Both the position numbers and the translations under genes were made by a program. From an uncultured Lachnospiraceae bacterium (GTDB taxonomy: Bacteria; Bacillota; Clostridia; Lachnospirales; Lachnospiraceae), in assembly GCA_947169385.1 (NCBI GenBank), contig CAMVPR010000005.1, forward strand, positions 26,357 to 90,356: a stretch of 64,000 nucleotides of DNA, in the 5' to 3' direction. Each line of letters starts with the position of its first letter. Within the stretch, counting starts at the first letter, position 1. The notes beneath the pieces are model-generated. The model was given only the letters and a program-made list of their open reading frames with translations. It had not been told where the DNA came from and searched no databases. Positions 25,488-38,722 of this stretch are shown one piece after another.

Positions 25488-25530
25488 TGATTGAGCGGCT
25501 TTTTAGCCGCTTTTTTTTTATTTTTTTGAT
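25488..25530 (+). terminator. Rho-independent terminator
   Basis: tgagcggctttttagccgc followed by a long T-run. Confidence 0.9.
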
Positions 25531-25538
25531 TTAAGTGT

Positions 25539-25565
25539 TAAGTATTCATTTATTCTGTCGATAAA
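25539..25565 (+). promoter_or_regulatory. Sigma-28-type promoter for flgM operon
   Basis: TAAG-15 nt-TCGATAAA. Confidence 0.75.
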
Positions 25566-25621: not shown

Positions 25622-25900
25622 ATGAGGATAGGTTCTATTAATCAAGTGGCACAGATGTATCAGACACAGACTAAGGCTGCTAAGCCTAAAGCATCATTTG
25701 AGAGCCAGATGAACGCGTACTCAGTGTCTTCAACAGGTAAGGATTATCAGGTTGCCAAGACTGCACTTAAAGCTACTCCTGATGTGAGAGAAGATAAGGT
25801 TGCAGATATCAAGGCTAAGATTGATAACGGTACTTATGATGTCAATCTCGATGATTTTGCCAGTAAGCTTATAAGTGCATATCGTGAGCGTACTATCTAA
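25622..25900 (+). CDS. flgM: Anti-sigma-28 factor FlgM
   Basis: MRIGSINQVAQMYQTQ, DVREDKVADIKAKIDNGTYDVNLDDFASKLISAYRE. Confidence 0.9.
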   Translation: MRIGSINQVAQMYQTQTKAAKPKASFESQMNAYSVSSTGKDYQVAKTALKATPDVREDKVADIKAKIDNGTYDVNLDDFASKLISAYRERTI

Positions 25901-25949: not shown

Positions 25950-26468
25950 TTGGCTACACTGATTGAGACATTGATTCAAGTGTTGGATGAGGAATGCGGA
26001 GTATTTGACCAGTTGCTTGAGATTTCTGAGAACAAGACGCAAGCGATTGTTGCCAATGATATCGCTAAGTTGCAGAAGATTACGGATCAGGAACAGGATG
26101 TATTGACCGTGATTACTAATTTGGAGAACAAGCGCGAGGAAGCGACAACGGATATAGCTACAGTGCTTGGGAAGGATCCTAAGAATTCAACACTAAAAGA
26201 TATCATTTCATATTTGGATGGTCAGGCTGATGTTAAGAATCAGCTCGCTAAGATTCATGATGACCTACTTACCAAGGTTAAGAGGTTGTCTGAGGAGAAT
26301 AATCACAATGCTGTATTGGTACAGGATCAGTTAGATTTGATTGATTTTAGCCTCAATGCTTTAAGGGGCATTAATCAGGCTCCTGAGACCGGAAGTTACA
26401 ATAAGGGTGCATACAATACGGGTGAGACCTATGCACCGATTAAAGGTACATTTGATTCCAGTTCATGA
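25950..26468 (+). CDS. flgN: Flagellar chaperone FlgN
   Basis: LIETLIQVLDEECGVFDQLLEISENKTQAIVANDIAKLQKITDQEQ; TTG start after aggaggt. Confidence 0.85.
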   Translation: MATLIETLIQVLDEECGVFDQLLEISENKTQAIVANDIAKLQKITDQEQDVLTVITNLENKREEATTDIATVLGKDPKNSTLKDIISYLDGQADVKNQLAKIHDDLLTKVKRLSEENNHNAVLVQDQLDLIDFSLNALRGINQAPETGSYNKGAYNTGETYAPIKGTFDSSS

Positions 26469-26508
26469 TCACAAGGAAGTGTTAGTGGTCTGGAGATATA
26501 TAAGTTTA

Positions 26509-26528
26509 GGCTATAACATTTTATAGCC
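26509..26528 (+). other. Hairpin in flgN-flgK spacer
   Basis: Perfect inverted repeat GGCTATAA catt TTATAGCC. Confidence 0.7.
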
Positions 26529-26546
26529 ATGACGGAATGTAAGGAT

Positions 26547-26640
26547 ACACACCATCAGATAAGCTTATTTCAGGATTTTGTTAATTGTTAATGGGCGCTG
26601 TTCCCGAAGCAATTATCGCTGATGCTTGTCAGTGGTGTGT
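26547..26640 (+). ncRNA. Structured RNA element of unknown class upstream of flgK
   Basis: ACACACCA(26547)/TGGTGTGT(26633) + GATAAGC(26558)/GCTTGTC(26624) + TAATTG(26582)/CAATTA(26610) + GGG/CCC; followed by T-rich tract and RBS. Confidence 0.5.
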
Positions 26641-26666
26641 TCGTTTTTATTTAAGGAGGTGACAGT

Positions 26667-28562
26667 ATGGGCGTTGGTTCAATGAGCGGTTTATATTTTG
26701 GAATATCGGGATTTCAGGTTAATCAGACAGCTTTGCAAGCGACGGCGCACAATCTGTCTAACTTAGATACTGACGGATATGTAAGACAGCAGGTTTTGAT
26801 GAAGGATACCCTTTATCAGAATTATTCAAGATCCAATGTCAGTGCTTCGCAGGTCGGTCTCGGAACTTCTATGGATACGGTTAGACAGGTTAGAGATGTA
26901 TTTGCCGACAAGCAGTACAGACTTGAGACCGGTAGAGGTGCTTTCTATTCAGCAATGGAAGAGGTTGGAGAGGAAGTTGAGACATACTTTGGAACTGATG
27001 TTGATGACGAGAAGCTTAAGAATACAATGATCAGGTTTTGGGAGACTTTGAATGAGCTTCAGAAGACTCCTGACAGTATTGTTAACAGAGAGACTGTTAT
27101 CCAGTCAGCTCAAGAGATGATCGAGCAGTCTAAGCTTATATATAACCAGATCGTGGAATATCAGAGGAATCTCAATGAACAGCTTACTAAACAGGTAGGT
27201 GAGGTCAATGACATTGCCAAGGAGATTCACGAATTAAACAGAGAGATAGTTAGAGTAGAGAGTAATCAATCTGAGCATGCTAACGATCTTAGAGATAAGA
27301 GGAATCTACTGCTTGATAAGTTGGCAACGTATGCTGAGATTAATTACAGAGAAGACGGTAACGGTTGTGTGACAGTTAACTTCGAAGGCATACCTTTGGT
27401 TGTTGATGACAGAGTGTTTGAGTTAGGTACAATTCCTGTTAGCGAGAGCAGTAATCTCTTGCAGGTTGTATGGGCTGATCACGGCAATATGCCTACATTT
27501 AACTTCACATATCTTCCAAGTGCCGAGACATCTACCGATGTTGGTTCACTTAAGGGACTTATTTATGCGAGAGGTAACTACATAGGAGATTACACTCTTA
27601 TGAATATGGAGACTTCACAGGCATATCTCAATAAACTTGATGAGTATGGATATCCTGAGTATGCATCATGGTATGATTTCTTCGTGGGTGAAGGCTACTT
27701 AAGCTCAACCGCAGCTGGTACTGATGAAGAATTAGAGTCAGCATATGCTGCATTTTACGAGAAAGAGATTGAGCCGTATCTGGTTACCAACGTTGAGGCT
27801 CAGCTCGATTATATGATGCACAATATAGTTACTACTATCAACGATATTCTGTGTCCTAATATAGAGGTAGATGCAGTTACTTCTGTCTATGATGATGAAG
27901 GTAATGAAGTCAAGCTTTATGTAGGTACTAAGATACTTGATACTGAGCATGCGCCGGTTGGCTTAGGTGTTGACGGTGAGCCGGGTGAAGAGTTGTTTAG
28001 CAGAGCTACAACTCCAAGGTACAAGAAGTACGTTGATGACGATGGTAACGCGGTGTACGTTTACAACGAAGAGGATCCTACTGACAAGTATTCGCAGTAT
28101 TCGATTACTCAGTTAGTTGTTAATGATACACTTATTAAGAATCCTAGTAAGTTACCTTTGTCAGATCCTAAAGAGCATTCTAACAGACAGGATGTATTGA
28201 ATGATCTGCTTGATGCCTGGTCATCAGAAGGTGAGTACGCCGGCATGGGAGATGATCATACCAAGTCTAACATGAAGGTGCTTACTCCTAATACCCTTAC
28301 GGGATATAATTTCCAGGGTTATTACAATGCTATGATTGGAGATTTATCCAACAGCATTAATTGTTATTATAACGTAGCTCAGAATCAGACGGTTGTTGCC
28401 AATCAGCTTGATGACAGAAGACAGACGGTTGCGGGTGTCAACAGTGATGAAGAGCTTACTAATATGATTATGTTCCAGCAGGCATTTAACGCTTGCTCAA
28501 GATATATCAATGTTGTTGCTGATATGCTTGATACGCTTATCAACAGAACGGGTAGAGCGTGA
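26667..28562 (+). CDS. flgK: Flagellar hook-associated protein 1 (FlgK), copy 1
   Basis: SGLYFGISGFQVNQTALQATAHNLSNLDTDGYVRQQV; C-terminal NSDEELTNMIMFQQAFNACSRYINVVADMLDTLIN. Confidence 0.9.
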   Translation: MGVGSMSGLYFGISGFQVNQTALQATAHNLSNLDTDGYVRQQVLMKDTLYQNYSRSNVSASQVGLGTSMDTVRQVRDVFADKQYRLETGRGAFYSAMEEVGEEVETYFGTDVDDEKLKNTMIRFWETLNELQKTPDSIVNRETVIQSAQEMIEQSKLIYNQIVEYQRNLNEQLTKQVGEVNDIAKEIHELNREIVRVESNQSEHANDLRDKRNLLLDKLATYAEINYREDGNGCVTVNFEGIPLVVDDRVFELGTIPVSESSNLLQVVWADHGNMPTFNFTYLPSAETSTDVGSLKGLIYARGNYIGDYTLMNMETSQAYLNKLDEYGYPEYASWYDFFVGEGYLSSTAAGTDEELESAYAAFYEKEIEPYLVTNVEAQLDYMMHNIVTTINDILCPNIEVDAVTSVYDDEGNEVKLYVGTKILDTEHAPVGLGVDGEPGEELFSRATTPRYKKYVDDDGNAVYVYNEEDPTDKYSQYSITQLVVNDTLIKNPSKLPLSDPKEHSNRQDVLNDLLDAWSSEGEYAGMGDDHTKSNMKVLTPNTLTGYNFQGYYNAMIGDLSNSINCYYNVAQNQTVVANQLDDRRQTVAGVNSDEELTNMIMFQQAFNACSRYINVVADMLDTLINRTGRA

Positions 28563-28592: not shown

Positions 28593-30467
28593 ATGTCTTC
28601 AACATTTTTTGGACTCAATATTTCTAAGACGGGTTTGTCGGGTTTTCAGGCGAGTGTTAATACGACGGCTCATAATATTTCCAACGCTGCCACTGACGGT
28701 TATTCCAGACAGGTTGTAGAGAAGCAGGCAGAGAAGGCTATTCGTACATACAACTCATACGGTAGTATGGGTGCCGGTGTTACTTTAGTTAGCGTTGAGA
28801 GACAGCGTAACGAGTACTATGACACTAAGTATTGGGATAATCAGGCGCATCTTGGTCAGTACGCATCTAAGGCTGACTATATGTCGCAGGTTGAGAATTA
28901 TTTCAATGAGATTTCGACAGATGGATTTAACACTGAGTTTAACAATTTATTCAATTCTTTGGTTGATCTTTCATCTGAACCTGACAGTTCTAACAAGAGG
29001 GTTACAACAGTTAGTTATGCGAGCAGTCTTTCTGATTATTTTAACGCATTGAGTGGCAATCTTACTCGTGTTCAGGAAGATGCTAACGATAGAATCAAGT
29101 CTATAGCAGATAGAATTAATTCAATTTCGGATCAGCTTTTATCACTTAACAAGCAGATTCAGACAATTGAGATTACCGGAGAGAAGGCCAATGATCTCAG
29201 GGATCAGAGGGACCTCTTGATTGACGAACTATCGGGATATGTTAATGTTCAGGTTATTGAGACAGATGTCTACGTAAGGGGAGCTACAGATTCTCATGGA
29301 GATCCTATAAAGGCAGGAATTACAGACGTTGCTGTATATCTGAATGATCAGATTCTTGTAGACAGTCTCAGTGCCAATCATCTTGTTTGTACTCCAAGAG
29401 AGTATCTTAACAATATGAATGACTGTGAAGGTCTTTATGACATTACTTGGAATTTCGCAGATGGCGATAGATTCGACCTTGCTTCGACAGGAATTGACGG
29501 AGAACTTAAAGGGCTTTTCGATATCAGAGACGGTAACAATAAGGAGAACTTTAGAGGAACGACAACATTTGCAGCGGGAGTCAATTCTATCGAAGTTCAG
29601 GCCGGCAATGTTACCAGCATGAACAGACTTAATATCCCTGATGAGGGCGAGATTAAGATTGGAAGATACACATACGAGTATTCAGATTTTGTAATTAATT
29701 ATAATGATGTCGGTGAGGTAGAGTCCTATACATTTAACCTTAAAGATGAGACTAAGGAAGCTGTTACGGAGACCAAGGCAGAGATTGCTGAGGATGTAGA
29801 TTTTAAGGGTGTACCTTACTATCAATACCAGCTCAATGAGTTCGTCAGAACTTTTGCTCAGAGATTTAATGAGATGCATAACAAGGGTATTGATGAGCAT
29901 GGTGAAGATGGAGTTGATTTCTTCACTACCGTTAATACAGTAACCGGTGCAGATATGGTTATGACTGAGGAAGGCGAAGAGTCTACCGGTGGCAAGACGT
30001 TTAGTTCTACGGCTGACAGTTATTACAGAATGACAGCTGCTAACATTTCCGTAGATCAGGGCATTCTAAAAGATGCCAACAAGATTTGTACGAGATACGG
30101 CCCTATAAGAACTGATGAAGGCGTTTTGTTAGAGCCTGAGGAGGGAGTTGCATCTTGCCAGCTTCTCAAGGATATTATCGATCTCAAGGCTGACAACAAG
30201 ATGTTTAGTCAGGGTAATCCTGCGGAGTTCTTGCAGGCGGTTGTCGCAGACATTTCCGTTGATTGCAGTAAGGCTAAGAATTTCGAGAGTTCTTTGAGTG
30301 ATGTTTTAAGGACGATCGACAATCAGAGAGAGTCGATTAAAGGTGTTGATTCCAACGAGGAATTAGCTAATCTTGTAATCTATCAAAAGGGATATAATCT
30401 ATGTTCCAAGATGATTTCTGTATTTAATGAGATTTACAATAAATTGATAAATGAGACCGGACTATAG
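28593..30467 (+). CDS. flgK: Flagellar hook-associated protein 1 (FlgK), copy 2
   Basis: STFFGLNISKTGLSGFQASVNTTAHNISNAATDGYSRQVV; GVDSNEELANLVIYQKGYNLCSKMISVFNEIYNKLIN. Confidence 0.93.
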   Translation: MSSTFFGLNISKTGLSGFQASVNTTAHNISNAATDGYSRQVVEKQAEKAIRTYNSYGSMGAGVTLVSVERQRNEYYDTKYWDNQAHLGQYASKADYMSQVENYFNEISTDGFNTEFNNLFNSLVDLSSEPDSSNKRVTTVSYASSLSDYFNALSGNLTRVQEDANDRIKSIADRINSISDQLLSLNKQIQTIEITGEKANDLRDQRDLLIDELSGYVNVQVIETDVYVRGATDSHGDPIKAGITDVAVYLNDQILVDSLSANHLVCTPREYLNNMNDCEGLYDITWNFADGDRFDLASTGIDGELKGLFDIRDGNNKENFRGTTTFAAGVNSIEVQAGNVTSMNRLNIPDEGEIKIGRYTYEYSDFVINYNDVGEVESYTFNLKDETKEAVTETKAEIAEDVDFKGVPYYQYQLNEFVRTFAQRFNEMHNKGIDEHGEDGVDFFTTVNTVTGADMVMTEEGEESTGGKTFSSTADSYYRMTAANISVDQGILKDANKICTRYGPIRTDEGVLLEPEEGVASCQLLKDIIDLKADNKMFSQGNPAEFLQAVVADISVDCSKAKNFESSLSDVLRTIDNQRESIKGVDSNEELANLVIYQKGYNLCSKMISVFNEIYNKLINETGL

Positions 30468-30485
30468 TATTTAGGAGGTGTGCTT

Positions 30486-32015
30486 ATGCGAGTTACTAAT
30501 TTAATGATGTCAAACAATGCATTATATAACTTACAGAGGCAGGAACAGAGGCTTAACACTCTTGATCAGCAATATACAACACAGAAGAAGATTAGTGCTC
30601 CTTCAGAGGATCCTATCATTGCGACAAGGGCTTTAAAACTTAATACTACTTATAGCGAGGTTTCACAGTACGTTGACAAGAATATACCTGATGCGCTTGC
30701 CTGGATGAGTATGACACAGAGTGCGCTTGACAATACTCAGGCTATGCTTTCGGGAATTTATGAGAAATGTGTTCAAGGTAATACCGATGGTCTTTCTGAC
30801 ACAGACAGAAGAGCTATTGCTACCACCTTGGCAGAGTATAGGGATCAGATATATCAGGAGGGAACAAGCTCTTACAGTGGAAGATTTTTGTTTACCGGAT
30901 TCAAGACCGATACCAATCTTGTATTTACCGAGGATACCAAAGAGCGATATGTAATTAACGAGGCGATAACTCCTGATTCTCTTAATTCATATTCTGATGT
31001 GTCATATCAGGTGTTGGTTACAGATACTGACGAGCAGGCTGCTCCTGTTCGCATGGATTTTCATAGAATAAGACTTGCTTATGATGCGGTAGACAGCGAA
31101 GTGACTCCTACTATAGCAGCTATAACTGTTGATGATGAGGGCGAGGAGACTTCTACTGATTTGTTGACTCCAACCAACACATACGAGACATATGATGACT
31201 TTATGAAAGCTGTTGAGGAAGGCGACATTGCAACTGATGGCAAGTTAAATGAAGACGTGGTTGCTTTCATAGCTGACAGAGGCGAGATTATGCTCGGCGA
31301 AGGTTCGTATAACACTATGAAGGCAGCGTTTGAGAATGACGAGTATGACAGAATTGAGGTAGGTTACCAGAAGAGTTCATTTAAAGAGAATGAGCTAAGA
31401 CCTGAGCATTACTTTACGTGTACAAGAGTTGTGGATGAGGGACTTGAGACCGAAGCTACATTTCAGTATACCAAGAAAGAAGAGGAGATTAAGTATCTCG
31501 TTAACTATAATCAACAGATGACAGTTAATGTACAGGGTAAAGATTGCTTTACTCACAACATTGGTAGAGATATAGACGAGCTTGTTGACATTGTAAATGC
31601 TGCTATTACGGCAGAGGATAATATGAATCAGCTTGAGAAGAAGTACAAGACTTTGACAGAGGGTACCGAGGAGTACGACAAGGCTAAGGCGTTATACGAG
31701 AATTCCAAGATTGCATATGAGCTCAAGTGTAAGGTGATGCAGGAAGCATTTGCCGACAATGAAACCAGATTCCAGGCGTACGGAGTAATGTTTAGTAACC
31801 GTGCATCTGATGTTGGTTCTAAGGAGCAGAGACTTGACCTTATCAAGACTCGTTTGGAGAATCAGCAGGCTGATGTTGAGCAACTTCAGTCAGACAACAT
31901 CGACGTGGATCTTTCAGAGATAATTGTAAGATACACTTCGGCTTATGATGTATATAATGCAGCACTTTCAGCTACAGCTAAGAGTATAGTTGATACACTG
32001 CTTAACTATTTGTAA
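30486..32015 (+). CDS. flgL: Flagellar hook-associated protein 3 (FlgL)
   Basis: MRVTNLMMSNNALYNLQRQEQRLNTLDQQYTTQKKISAPSEDPIIATRALKL. Confidence 0.93.
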   Translation: MRVTNLMMSNNALYNLQRQEQRLNTLDQQYTTQKKISAPSEDPIIATRALKLNTTYSEVSQYVDKNIPDALAWMSMTQSALDNTQAMLSGIYEKCVQGNTDGLSDTDRRAIATTLAEYRDQIYQEGTSSYSGRFLFTGFKTDTNLVFTEDTKERYVINEAITPDSLNSYSDVSYQVLVTDTDEQAAPVRMDFHRIRLAYDAVDSEVTPTIAAITVDDEGEETSTDLLTPTNTYETYDDFMKAVEEGDIATDGKLNEDVVAFIADRGEIMLGEGSYNTMKAAFENDEYDRIEVGYQKSSFKENELRPEHYFTCTRVVDEGLETEATFQYTKKEEEIKYLVNYNQQMTVNVQGKDCFTHNIGRDIDELVDIVNAAITAEDNMNQLEKKYKTLTEGTEEYDKAKALYENSKIAYELKCKVMQEAFADNETRFQAYGVMFSNRASDVGSKEQRLDLIKTRLENQQADVEQLQSDNIDVDLSEIIVRYTSAYDVYNAALSATAKSIVDTLLNYL

Positions 32016-32080: not shown

Positions 32081-32548
32081 ATGCTAGTTAAATCCAAATT
32101 TTTTGGGGATGTAGATATTGAAGATGATAAGGTGATCACTTTAGTCAACGGATTGCTTGGATTTGAAGACTATACCAAGTTCGTTATCCTCTATGATAGC
32201 GACAAGTCCGGTGGTGATACCATCTCGTGGCTTCAGTCAACAGAAGAGCAGACATTGGCTCTCCCTGTAGTTAATCCGCTTTTCATTAAAGAGGGATATA
32301 ATCCTGTTATCAATGATGAACTTTTAGAGCCACTCGGTGAGGTTGGTGAAGATGGTTACTTTGTTTTGGTTACCATGCGTATACCTCACGATCCTAAGGA
32401 TGTTACATGTAACCTTAAGGCTCCTATCATCATTAATTCTGCTACCCTGTTAGGAAGTCAGATTGTAGCAGAGAACGAGGACTATGACGTAAGATATAAC
32501 ATTTACGATTCTGTCCAGGCACTTAAAGAAAAGGCGGGTGATTTATAA
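32081..32548 (+). CDS. fliW: Flagellar assembly factor FliW
   Basis: KFFGDVDIEDDKVITLVNGLLGFEDYTKFVIL; followed by csrA with overlapping stop/start. Confidence 0.95.
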   Translation: MLVKSKFFGDVDIEDDKVITLVNGLLGFEDYTKFVILYDSDKSGGDTISWLQSTEEQTLALPVVNPLFIKEGYNPVINDELLEPLGEVGEDGYFVLVTMRIPHDPKDVTCNLKAPIIINSATLLGSQIVAENEDYDVRYNIYDSVQALKEKAGDL

Positions 32549-32769
32549 TGTTAGCACTATCAAGGAAGTCAGGAGAGGCTATAGTTGTAGGCAACAACGT
32601 AGAAATCACTGTTTTAGAGGTTAAGGGCGATCAGGTTAAGATTGGAATCGCTGCTCCTAAGAGTGTTCCTGTATATCGTAAAGAGCTTTATCTTCAGATT
32701 CAGGAGGCCAACAAGGCAGCGGCTGAGGCGGACTCATCACCTGATGCAATCGCTAAATTATTCTCATAA
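32548..32769 (+). CDS. csrA: Carbon storage regulator CsrA
   Basis: MLALSRKSGEAIVVGNNVEITVLEVKGDQVKIGIAAPKSVPVYRKELY. Confidence 0.98.
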   Translation: MLALSRKSGEAIVVGNNVEITVLEVKGDQVKIGIAAPKSVPVYRKELYLQIQEANKAAAEADSSPDAIAKLFS

Positions 32770-32792: not shown

Positions 32793-32828
32793 GCTTCTGG
32801 TTTATTATATAAACTAGGAGCATTTTTT
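32793..32828 (+). terminator. Rho-independent terminator after csrA
   Basis: gcttctggtttattatataaactaggagc + atttttt. Confidence 0.8.
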
Positions 32829-32899: not shown

Positions 32900-32952
32900 G
32901 TTTTCTTTGTGTACCTATTTTTATTTTATACATCACACGGAGGTGATTTGTT

Positions 32953-36812: not shown

Positions 36813-36832
36813 CAGTGATAAGGATGTCACTG
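36813..36832 (+). promoter_or_regulatory. Candidate CsrA-binding hairpin in flagellin 1 leader
   Basis: CAGTGA-TAAGGATG-TCACTG; AAGGATG in loop of perfect 6-bp stem, upstream of SD CAAGGAGGA. Confidence 0.65.
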
Positions 36833-37903: not shown

Positions 37904-38722
37904 ATGGTAGTACAGCACAATATGCAAGCATCTAACACAAACAGATACTTAAATGTATCAGTTAAGGCACAGGCAGGAGTAACAGAGAAGTTATCTTCAG
38001 GATATAGAGTAAACCGTGCAGCAGATGATGCAGCAGGTCTTAATATTTCAGAGAAGATGAGAGCTCAGATCAGAGGTCTTAATCAGGCTAATAGAAACTC
38101 AGAGGATGGTATTTCACTTATCCAGACAGCAGAGGGTGCTCTTCAGGAGATCCACTCAATCTTACAGCGTATGAGCGAGCTCGCTACACAGGGCGCTAAC
38201 GATACCAACGTAACCGCTGACCGTCACGCTCTTAAGCTTGAGCTTACAGCACTTTCATCAGAGATTACACGTATTGCTAACACCACTGAGTTCAACACAA
38301 TGAAGCTTCTTTCTGGTAACTTCAAGAGCAAGAACCTTCAGGTTGGTGCTAACTATATGCAGCACATCTCAATCAGCATCTCAGGTATGACGGCTACTAA
38401 ACTTCATGTTCAGAACAGCAACTTGAAGATTAGTAACTACAAGGTTGCTACAGCTACAATTTCAGTTATCCATGCTGCTATCAACCAGGTATCAGATCAG
38501 AGATCACAGCTTGGTGCTTTACAGAACAGATTAGAGCATACAATTAACAACTTGAGCAACGTTGCTGAGAACTTACAGGCAGCTGAGTCACAGATTCGTG
38601 ATACAGATATGGCTACAACGATGGTTGAGTACAGCAAGAACAACATCATTCAGCAGGCAGCTCAATCAATGCTTACACAGGCTAACCAGTCTACACAGGG
38701 CGTATTGTCATTACTACAGTAA
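37904..38722 (+). CDS. fliC: Flagellin, copy 2
   Basis: 272 aa, differs from copy 1 at about five residues by eye. Confidence 0.97.
   Translation: MVVQHNMQASNTNRYLNVSVKAQAGVTEKLSSGYRVNRAADDAAGLNISEKMRAQIRGLNQANRNSEDGISLIQTAEGALQEIHSILQRMSELATQGANDTNVTADRHALKLELTALSSEITRIANTTEFNTMKLLSGNFKSKNLQVGANYMQHISISISGMTATKLHVQNSNLKISNYKVATATISVIHAAINQVSDQRSQLGALQNRLEHTINNLSNVAENLQAAESQIRDTDMATTMVEYSKNNIIQQAAQSMLTQANQSTQGVLSLLQ

Follow-up and report, generated by a model that had tools for sequence, protein, structure and literature searches.

The spacer between flgN and flgK in the window, a 64,000-nt stretch of DNA from an uncultured Lachnospiraceae bacterium, carries a conserved intrinsic terminator, of which the 94-nt structure found here is, on the well-supported evidence of the sister species, an enlarged form. 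This terminator lies inside an operon running from flgM to csrA and is preceded by a leader with two candidate CsrA modules, and we give a probability of roughly 0.4 to the reading that the arrangement is an attenuator tuned by CsrA and FliW. The best-known role of CsrA in Firmicutes is to repress flagellin translation, with FliW restraining it. The operon order, the conservation of the terminator and of a CsrA consensus, and the lack of a sigma-D motif in the spacer are apparent from the sequence of five genomes of the genus, each from a different species (the window included) and together counted as four independent lineages.

The unit and its parts lie on the forward strand. The gene preceding the unit is closed by a terminator at 25493-25512, which is followed by a putative sigma-D type promoter of flgM (TAAG, 14 nt, GTCGATAA; 25539..25564), whose motif recurs upstream of the window's two hag genes; in each of the five genomes flgM has a -10 of the CGATA type ahead of it. 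The unit comprises flgM (25622..25900; Pfam FlgM, E 2e-19), flgN (25950..26468; Pfam FlgN, E 1e-28), flgK as the first gene past the terminator (26667..28562; Pfam FlgK_D1), a second flgK (28593..30467; Pfam FlgK_D1), flgL (30480..32015; 511 aa, assigned by the Pfam flagellin N and C domains and operon position), fliW for the CsrA antagonist (32081..32548; Pfam FliW, E 6e-35) and, as the last gene, csrA (32548..32769; Pfam CsrA, E 1e-25). In all five genomes flgN precedes flgK and both fliW and csrA follow downstream; csrA also follows in G100, a member of another genus. The next strong terminator on the strand ends the unit after csrA (32793..32821), and weaker consensus matches also occur inside genes. 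The CGATA (sigma-D) motif is absent from all five flgN-flgK spacers, and a consensus screen of the window spacer for sigma-70-type/sigma-A promoters gave no match. Since the promoter lies before flgM, none was found in the spacer and the next strong terminator follows csrA, transcripts from the flgM promoter would require readthrough to reach flgK, the second flgK, flgL, fliW and csrA; other promoters, including internal ones, are possible. The two flgK genes share about 29% identity in their N-terminal portion, and the tandem pair occurs in all five species.

The spacer measures 198 nt (flgN stop, 26468; flgK ATG, 26667). A reading made from the sequence alone had called this unusually long, and the family comparison agrees, with a median of 27 nt at 147 other Lachnospiraceae loci, of which 17 have spacers of at least 100 nt. 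That reading had also described a closed structure of about 94 nt, which we recover as the terminator hairpin (26547..26640; -31.6 kcal/mol; orthologues in the sister species): the outer stem ACACACCA (26547-26554)/TGGTGTGT (26633-26640) and the inner stems GATAAGC/GCTTGTC, TAATTG/CAATTA and GGG/CCC are all in place and prevail in the predicted ensemble; their pair probabilities are about 0.9-1.0, except for a single outer pair at 0.66. The whole spacer folds at -53.6 kcal/mol, where shuffled versions give -43.4 kcal/mol (z -3.0; none of 200 as good). The T-rich tract noted at the end of the structure is likewise present as the U-rich tract tcgTTTTTATTT (26641..26652), directly ahead of the flgK Shine-Dalgarno sequence AAGGAGG (26653..26659). 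The 8-bp hairpin GGCTATAA/TTATAGCC (26509..26528) that had been placed before this structure exists as a sequence, but is outcompeted by a longer hairpin (26476-26522), which leaves it an ensemble probability of 0.01, and it is not conserved, being weakened in G001 and missing in the three other species; it stands outside the element. A possible leader peptide of 20 codons, starting with the ATG at 26528, was rejected by eye, its frame being broken in the sister species.

Alignment of the five spacers resolves two conserved islands, set apart by 50-69 nt, within otherwise diverged sequence. Across the four lineages, 9 of 10 columns are invariant in island 1 and 20 of 27 around island 2, compared with 4/54 between the islands, 1/57 in the hairpin loop and 6/48 after the hairpin; the flanking coding ends reach 39/60 and 22/30. 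Island 2 runs into the 5' arm of the terminator, whose arms in the genus read AC(A/G)CCAUCAG and CUGAUGG(U/C)GU, followed by the U tract. The plainest forms are found in G003 (ACACCATCAG...CTGATGGTGT-TTTTTT, -17.4 kcal/mol) and G002 (ACGCCATCAG...CTGATGGCGT-TTTTTT, -16.8 kcal/mol), where perfect basal stems, not equalled in any of 60 shuffles, are followed by an uninterrupted TTTTTT; these terminators are 37-45 nt long, and that of G002 consists entirely of a hairpin of 11 bp closed by a loop of 15 nt. The terminator of G004 is longer than those two (-23.6 kcal/mol; U tract UUUUAUU), and the longest hairpins are those of the window and of G001 (Lachnospiraceae bacterium NC2004; -31.1 kcal/mol), whose spacer is 96% identical. 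In the window, the U run UCGUUUUUAUUU begins three bases off the stem. From the end of the terminator to flgK there are 23-28 nt in the window and 25 nt in G002, and the G003 hairpin ends 89 nt upstream of the start codon.

Of the stems that had been expected to persist in related genomes, the basal stem of the terminator is kept, whereas the internal stems and the first hairpin are not. The basal stem contains one A-U to G-C double exchange as well as G-U variants that keep pairing, and 88% of the cells counted are paired vs 27-63% with slid partners (five sequences). This covariation is thin (five sequences, four lineages), and 3'-letter shuffles often reach the observed values, so that it provides support for the stem rather than proof. 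The 3' side in the window, CTGATG-cttgtcag-TGGTGTG, resembles the arm of the sister species interrupted by an insertion of 8 nt. We therefore read the ATCAG/CTGAT pairing, proposed earlier as the basis of a two-state switch, as a probable remnant of the ancestral terminator stem beside that insertion; its probability in the window ensemble is 0.00, and the switch is abandoned. An antiterminator helix GAUGG/CCAUC, seen by eye in G002 and G004, is not fully kept in the other lineages, and comparison of the genus spacers revealed no conserved longer antiterminator helix.

Terminators in this position extend beyond the genus. When all hairpin lengths up to 48 nt were scanned with a cut-off of -8 kcal/mol or better, 10 of the 48 spacers of at least 40 nt from other Lachnospiraceae contained a terminator, vs 0.9 expected. 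In G289 and G339 a sigma-D-like motif, ACCGATAT, follows the spacer terminator; other family terminators end near the flgK start. The complete element is single-copy in its own genome, and a search for the island 2 pattern in 392 genomes of the order gave matches in 23 (one exact, the rest with one mismatch), which are scattered, include no evident homologue and are read as chance. A wider scan for related loci gave mainly distant flgK genes from Selenomonadales and Planococcaceae, which do not inform the spacer.

The first GGA module, site 1 (26470..26481), coincides with island 1 directly after the flgN stop codon. It reads CAC-AAGGAA-GUG, matches ACANGGANGU and has the consensus ACA-N-GGA-N-GU; ACANGGANGT is present in all five species and hence all four lineages (shuffle mean 0.02). 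All five can form a hexaloop closed by CAC/GUG (or UAC/GUA), with a C-G to U-A exchange in the stem in G004. This putative site fits the SELEX consensus for CsrA, RUACARGGAUGU, in which ACA and GGA are fully conserved (PMC7652899), and the CANGGANG type of hexaloop described for Campylobacter jejuni flaA (PMC4894983). The second module, putative site 2 (26539..26548; GUAAGGAUAC, GUA-AGGA-UAC), is kept in all five species as GTA(A/T)GGATAC with one variable column; it has the GGA, with GUA/UAC in place of ACA/UGU. Its last two bases are common to the 5' arm of the terminator in the window, G002 and G003 and do not overlap it in G004. Without the two bases at the start of the arm, the hairpin is 2.4-3.7 kcal/mol less stable and its stem lies further from the U tract. 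Further GGA motifs of the window leader are uGGAga (26491..26496) and cGGAat (26533..26538), the latter out of register in other species. Every species has four to five GGA before the terminator, only one of which per leader matches the high-affinity consensus in the genus; the four lineages together count 17, against 7.7 in shuffled sequence (reached by 0 of 5000).

In predicted protein-free folds, site 1 reaches a probability of 0.95 in G002, 0.33 in G004 and roughly 0.1 in G003, and falls to roughly 0 in the window and G001, in both of which a longer hairpin competes with it; site 2 is hardly formed in any species, and few leader GGA sit in stable hairpins. Genome-wide, ACANGGANGT shows no enrichment (93 matches vs 109 for the reversed control), and nearly all of the 30 matches inspected among the 93 lie inside open reading frames. 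On the strength of conservation and consensus, binding of the leader by CsrA is likely, probably at both site 1 and site 2. The earlier proposal that the GGA motifs are CsrA targets is thus retained with CsrA as a candidate binder of the leader; the Shine-Dalgarno sequence of flgK, which it had included, is an unlikely target because three of the five species (G002, G003 and G004) have no GGA there.

Based on this arrangement, we propose the following hypothetical course of events. Part of the transcripts would stop at the terminator and yield flgM-flgN messages, and only readthrough would supply flgK to csrA. In the window, G002 and G003, where the first two bases of the stem also belong to site 2, CsrA bound to that site would keep the pairs at the base of the stem, next to the U tract, from forming and so favour readthrough; FliW, freed on flagellin export, would reverse the effect. 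With csrA and fliW located downstream of the terminator, such an element would feed back on the supply of CsrA and FliW as well as on the synthesis of hook-junction proteins. We infer both that CsrA controls readthrough and the direction in which it does so, and the full proposal, in which CsrA at a GGA module sharing terminator-stem bases alters readthrough into the hook-junction genes and csrA so that the export status of the filament feeds back on elongation, is a tentative one. Attenuation need not apply in G289, because a sigma-D-like motif lies behind its terminator. If CsrA does also act on an intrinsic terminator before flgK-flgL-fliW-csrA, transcription elongation would become part of flagellin homeostasis, in the very operon that makes the hook-filament junction and CsrA itself.

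A simpler account would be a fixed leaky terminator that only sets a ratio, with flgM-flgN transcripts exceeding those of flgK-csrA, and with the GGA modules acting on message stability or on the flgM-flgN 3' end rather than on termination. The terminator is the best-supported part of the element, spacer terminators of other genera mostly occur without a CsrA consensus, and site 2 and the terminator do not overlap in G004, all of which suits this account. However, it leaves unexplained why every one of the five species has a GGA module adjoining the terminator arm, and why both modules are retained across the diverged stretch between them, and we consider it rather doubtful. Alternatively, the terminated flgM-flgN 3' UTR could, possibly after processing, sequester CsrA in the manner of RsmX/Y/Z or CsrB. 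The excess of GGA over shuffles points in this direction, as do the flaA mRNA leader of Campylobacter jejuni, a FliW organism, which titrates CsrA (PMC4894983), and the G289 spacer, where the sigma-D-like motif behind the terminator leaves the sites in a 3' UTR. Small RNAs of the CsrB/RsmZ type have many GGA hairpins followed by a terminator; the leaders of the genus have four to five GGA each, few of them in stable hairpins. For a separate small RNA, no sigma-D motif lies in the spacer and, in the window, no sigma-70-type consensus match, though another promoter type or processing may serve. As only one GGA per leader fits the high-affinity consensus and the antagonist FliW is already present, such titration appears unlikely.

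Control of flgK translation, with CsrA or the hairpin blocking the ribosome site as CsrA does at hag, would be in keeping with the GGA in the window Shine-Dalgarno sequence, 13 nt behind the hairpin, and with the CsrA sites before flgK in G100 and G396, where no terminator is found. The three sister species without GGA in this sequence and the distance of the G003 hairpin from the start codon argue against it, and we regard it as very improbable. The sequence-only reading had itself favoured a structured RNA of unknown class, such as a ligand-sensing riboswitch. The strong fold of the window suits that idea, and an Rfam search agreed with the earlier failure to recognise a known riboswitch (no match in the window at the gathering score; best E 8 around the spacer at a relaxed threshold). 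The sister species nevertheless largely refute it, leaving it hardly any credence: the internal stems are not conserved, the loop is almost free of invariant columns, the G002 structure is reduced to a short hairpin, and no conserved core resembling a pocket is seen. What is conserved is an intrinsic terminator and two GGA modules. With the sister species at hand, an RNA structure that seemed complex can be recognised as a terminator.

Flagellar leaders with CsrA sites, intrinsic terminators and attenuators under protein control are each of a known kind. Like the hag leader of Bacillus subtilis, with its two CsrA sites and FliW as antagonist, the element has GGA hairpins of the CsrA type (candidates in the window), in a flagellar message that is predicted to depend on sigma-D, with csrA and fliW near flgK-flgL, and the hag leader of the window also has an upstream hairpin and a Shine-Dalgarno site. 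In contrast to B. subtilis hag, the two conserved sites of the window stand some 120-195 nt upstream of the start codon and are followed by an intrinsic terminator, and GGA is missing from the flgK Shine-Dalgarno sequence in three of the five species. In the Escherichia coli pgaA leader, CsrA promotes Rho-dependent termination, and CsrA has also been tied to RNA decay near the CsrB terminator (PMC7652899). The pgaA leader likewise has CsrA sites (candidates in the window) upstream of the termination point, but termination there is Rho-dependent and promoted by CsrA, whereas in the window it is intrinsic and the direction of the effect is only proposed. In C. jejuni, CsrA targets flaA, flaG and flgM and binds the flaG and flgM messages (PMC4894983); this FliW organism shares hexaloops of the CANGGANG type, but the passages covered describe no terminator element, and the flaA leader acts via translation and titration. 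The protein-controlled attenuators of Firmicutes, TRAP-trp and L10(L12)4-rplJL (PMC4027176, PMC4538822), also separate the promoter from the genes by an intrinsic terminator, with binding sites for a protein (candidates in the window) ahead of it, and that of rplJL involves feedback by an operon product, as proposed here. They differ in the protein, and in the window element no clear antiterminator helix was found and the location is mid-operon instead of at the start. The literature covered, chiefly open-access papers, describes neither an intrinsic terminator as a target of CsrA nor such an arrangement before flgK, which is a weak negative.

Matches to the CsrA consensus in the same spacer also occur in other genera, which speaks for CsrA as well: twice in G289, together with a terminator, twice in G100 and once in G396. 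The flgN-flgK spacer of G289 (L042) has two consensus sites, the terminator and then the sigma-D-like motif, and is an independent version of the arrangement. The spacers of G100 (L109) and G396 (L147) have one or two consensus sites (ACAUGGAUGU, ACAAGGAUGU) before flgK and no terminator; in G100 the gene upstream of the spacer is flgM, not flgN. Within the window, the flaG leader (32932-32947) contains the hairpin AUCAC-ACGGAG-GUGAU with GGA in a hexaloop over the Shine-Dalgarno sequence and is a predicted site of CsrA repression; a CACA-N-GGA-G-GUG core over this sequence in all five species supports the CsrA reading. A hag leader of the window (36813-36832) has the hairpin CAGUGAUAAGGAUGUCACUG and GGAGGA at the Shine-Dalgarno sequence, the layout of the CsrA sites of B. 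subtilis hag and a further point in favour of the CsrA reading, and the second hag copy (start near 37904) keeps the Shine-Dalgarno site without the hairpin. A GGA hairpin together with the Shine-Dalgarno site is found in the hag leaders of G000, G001 and G003.
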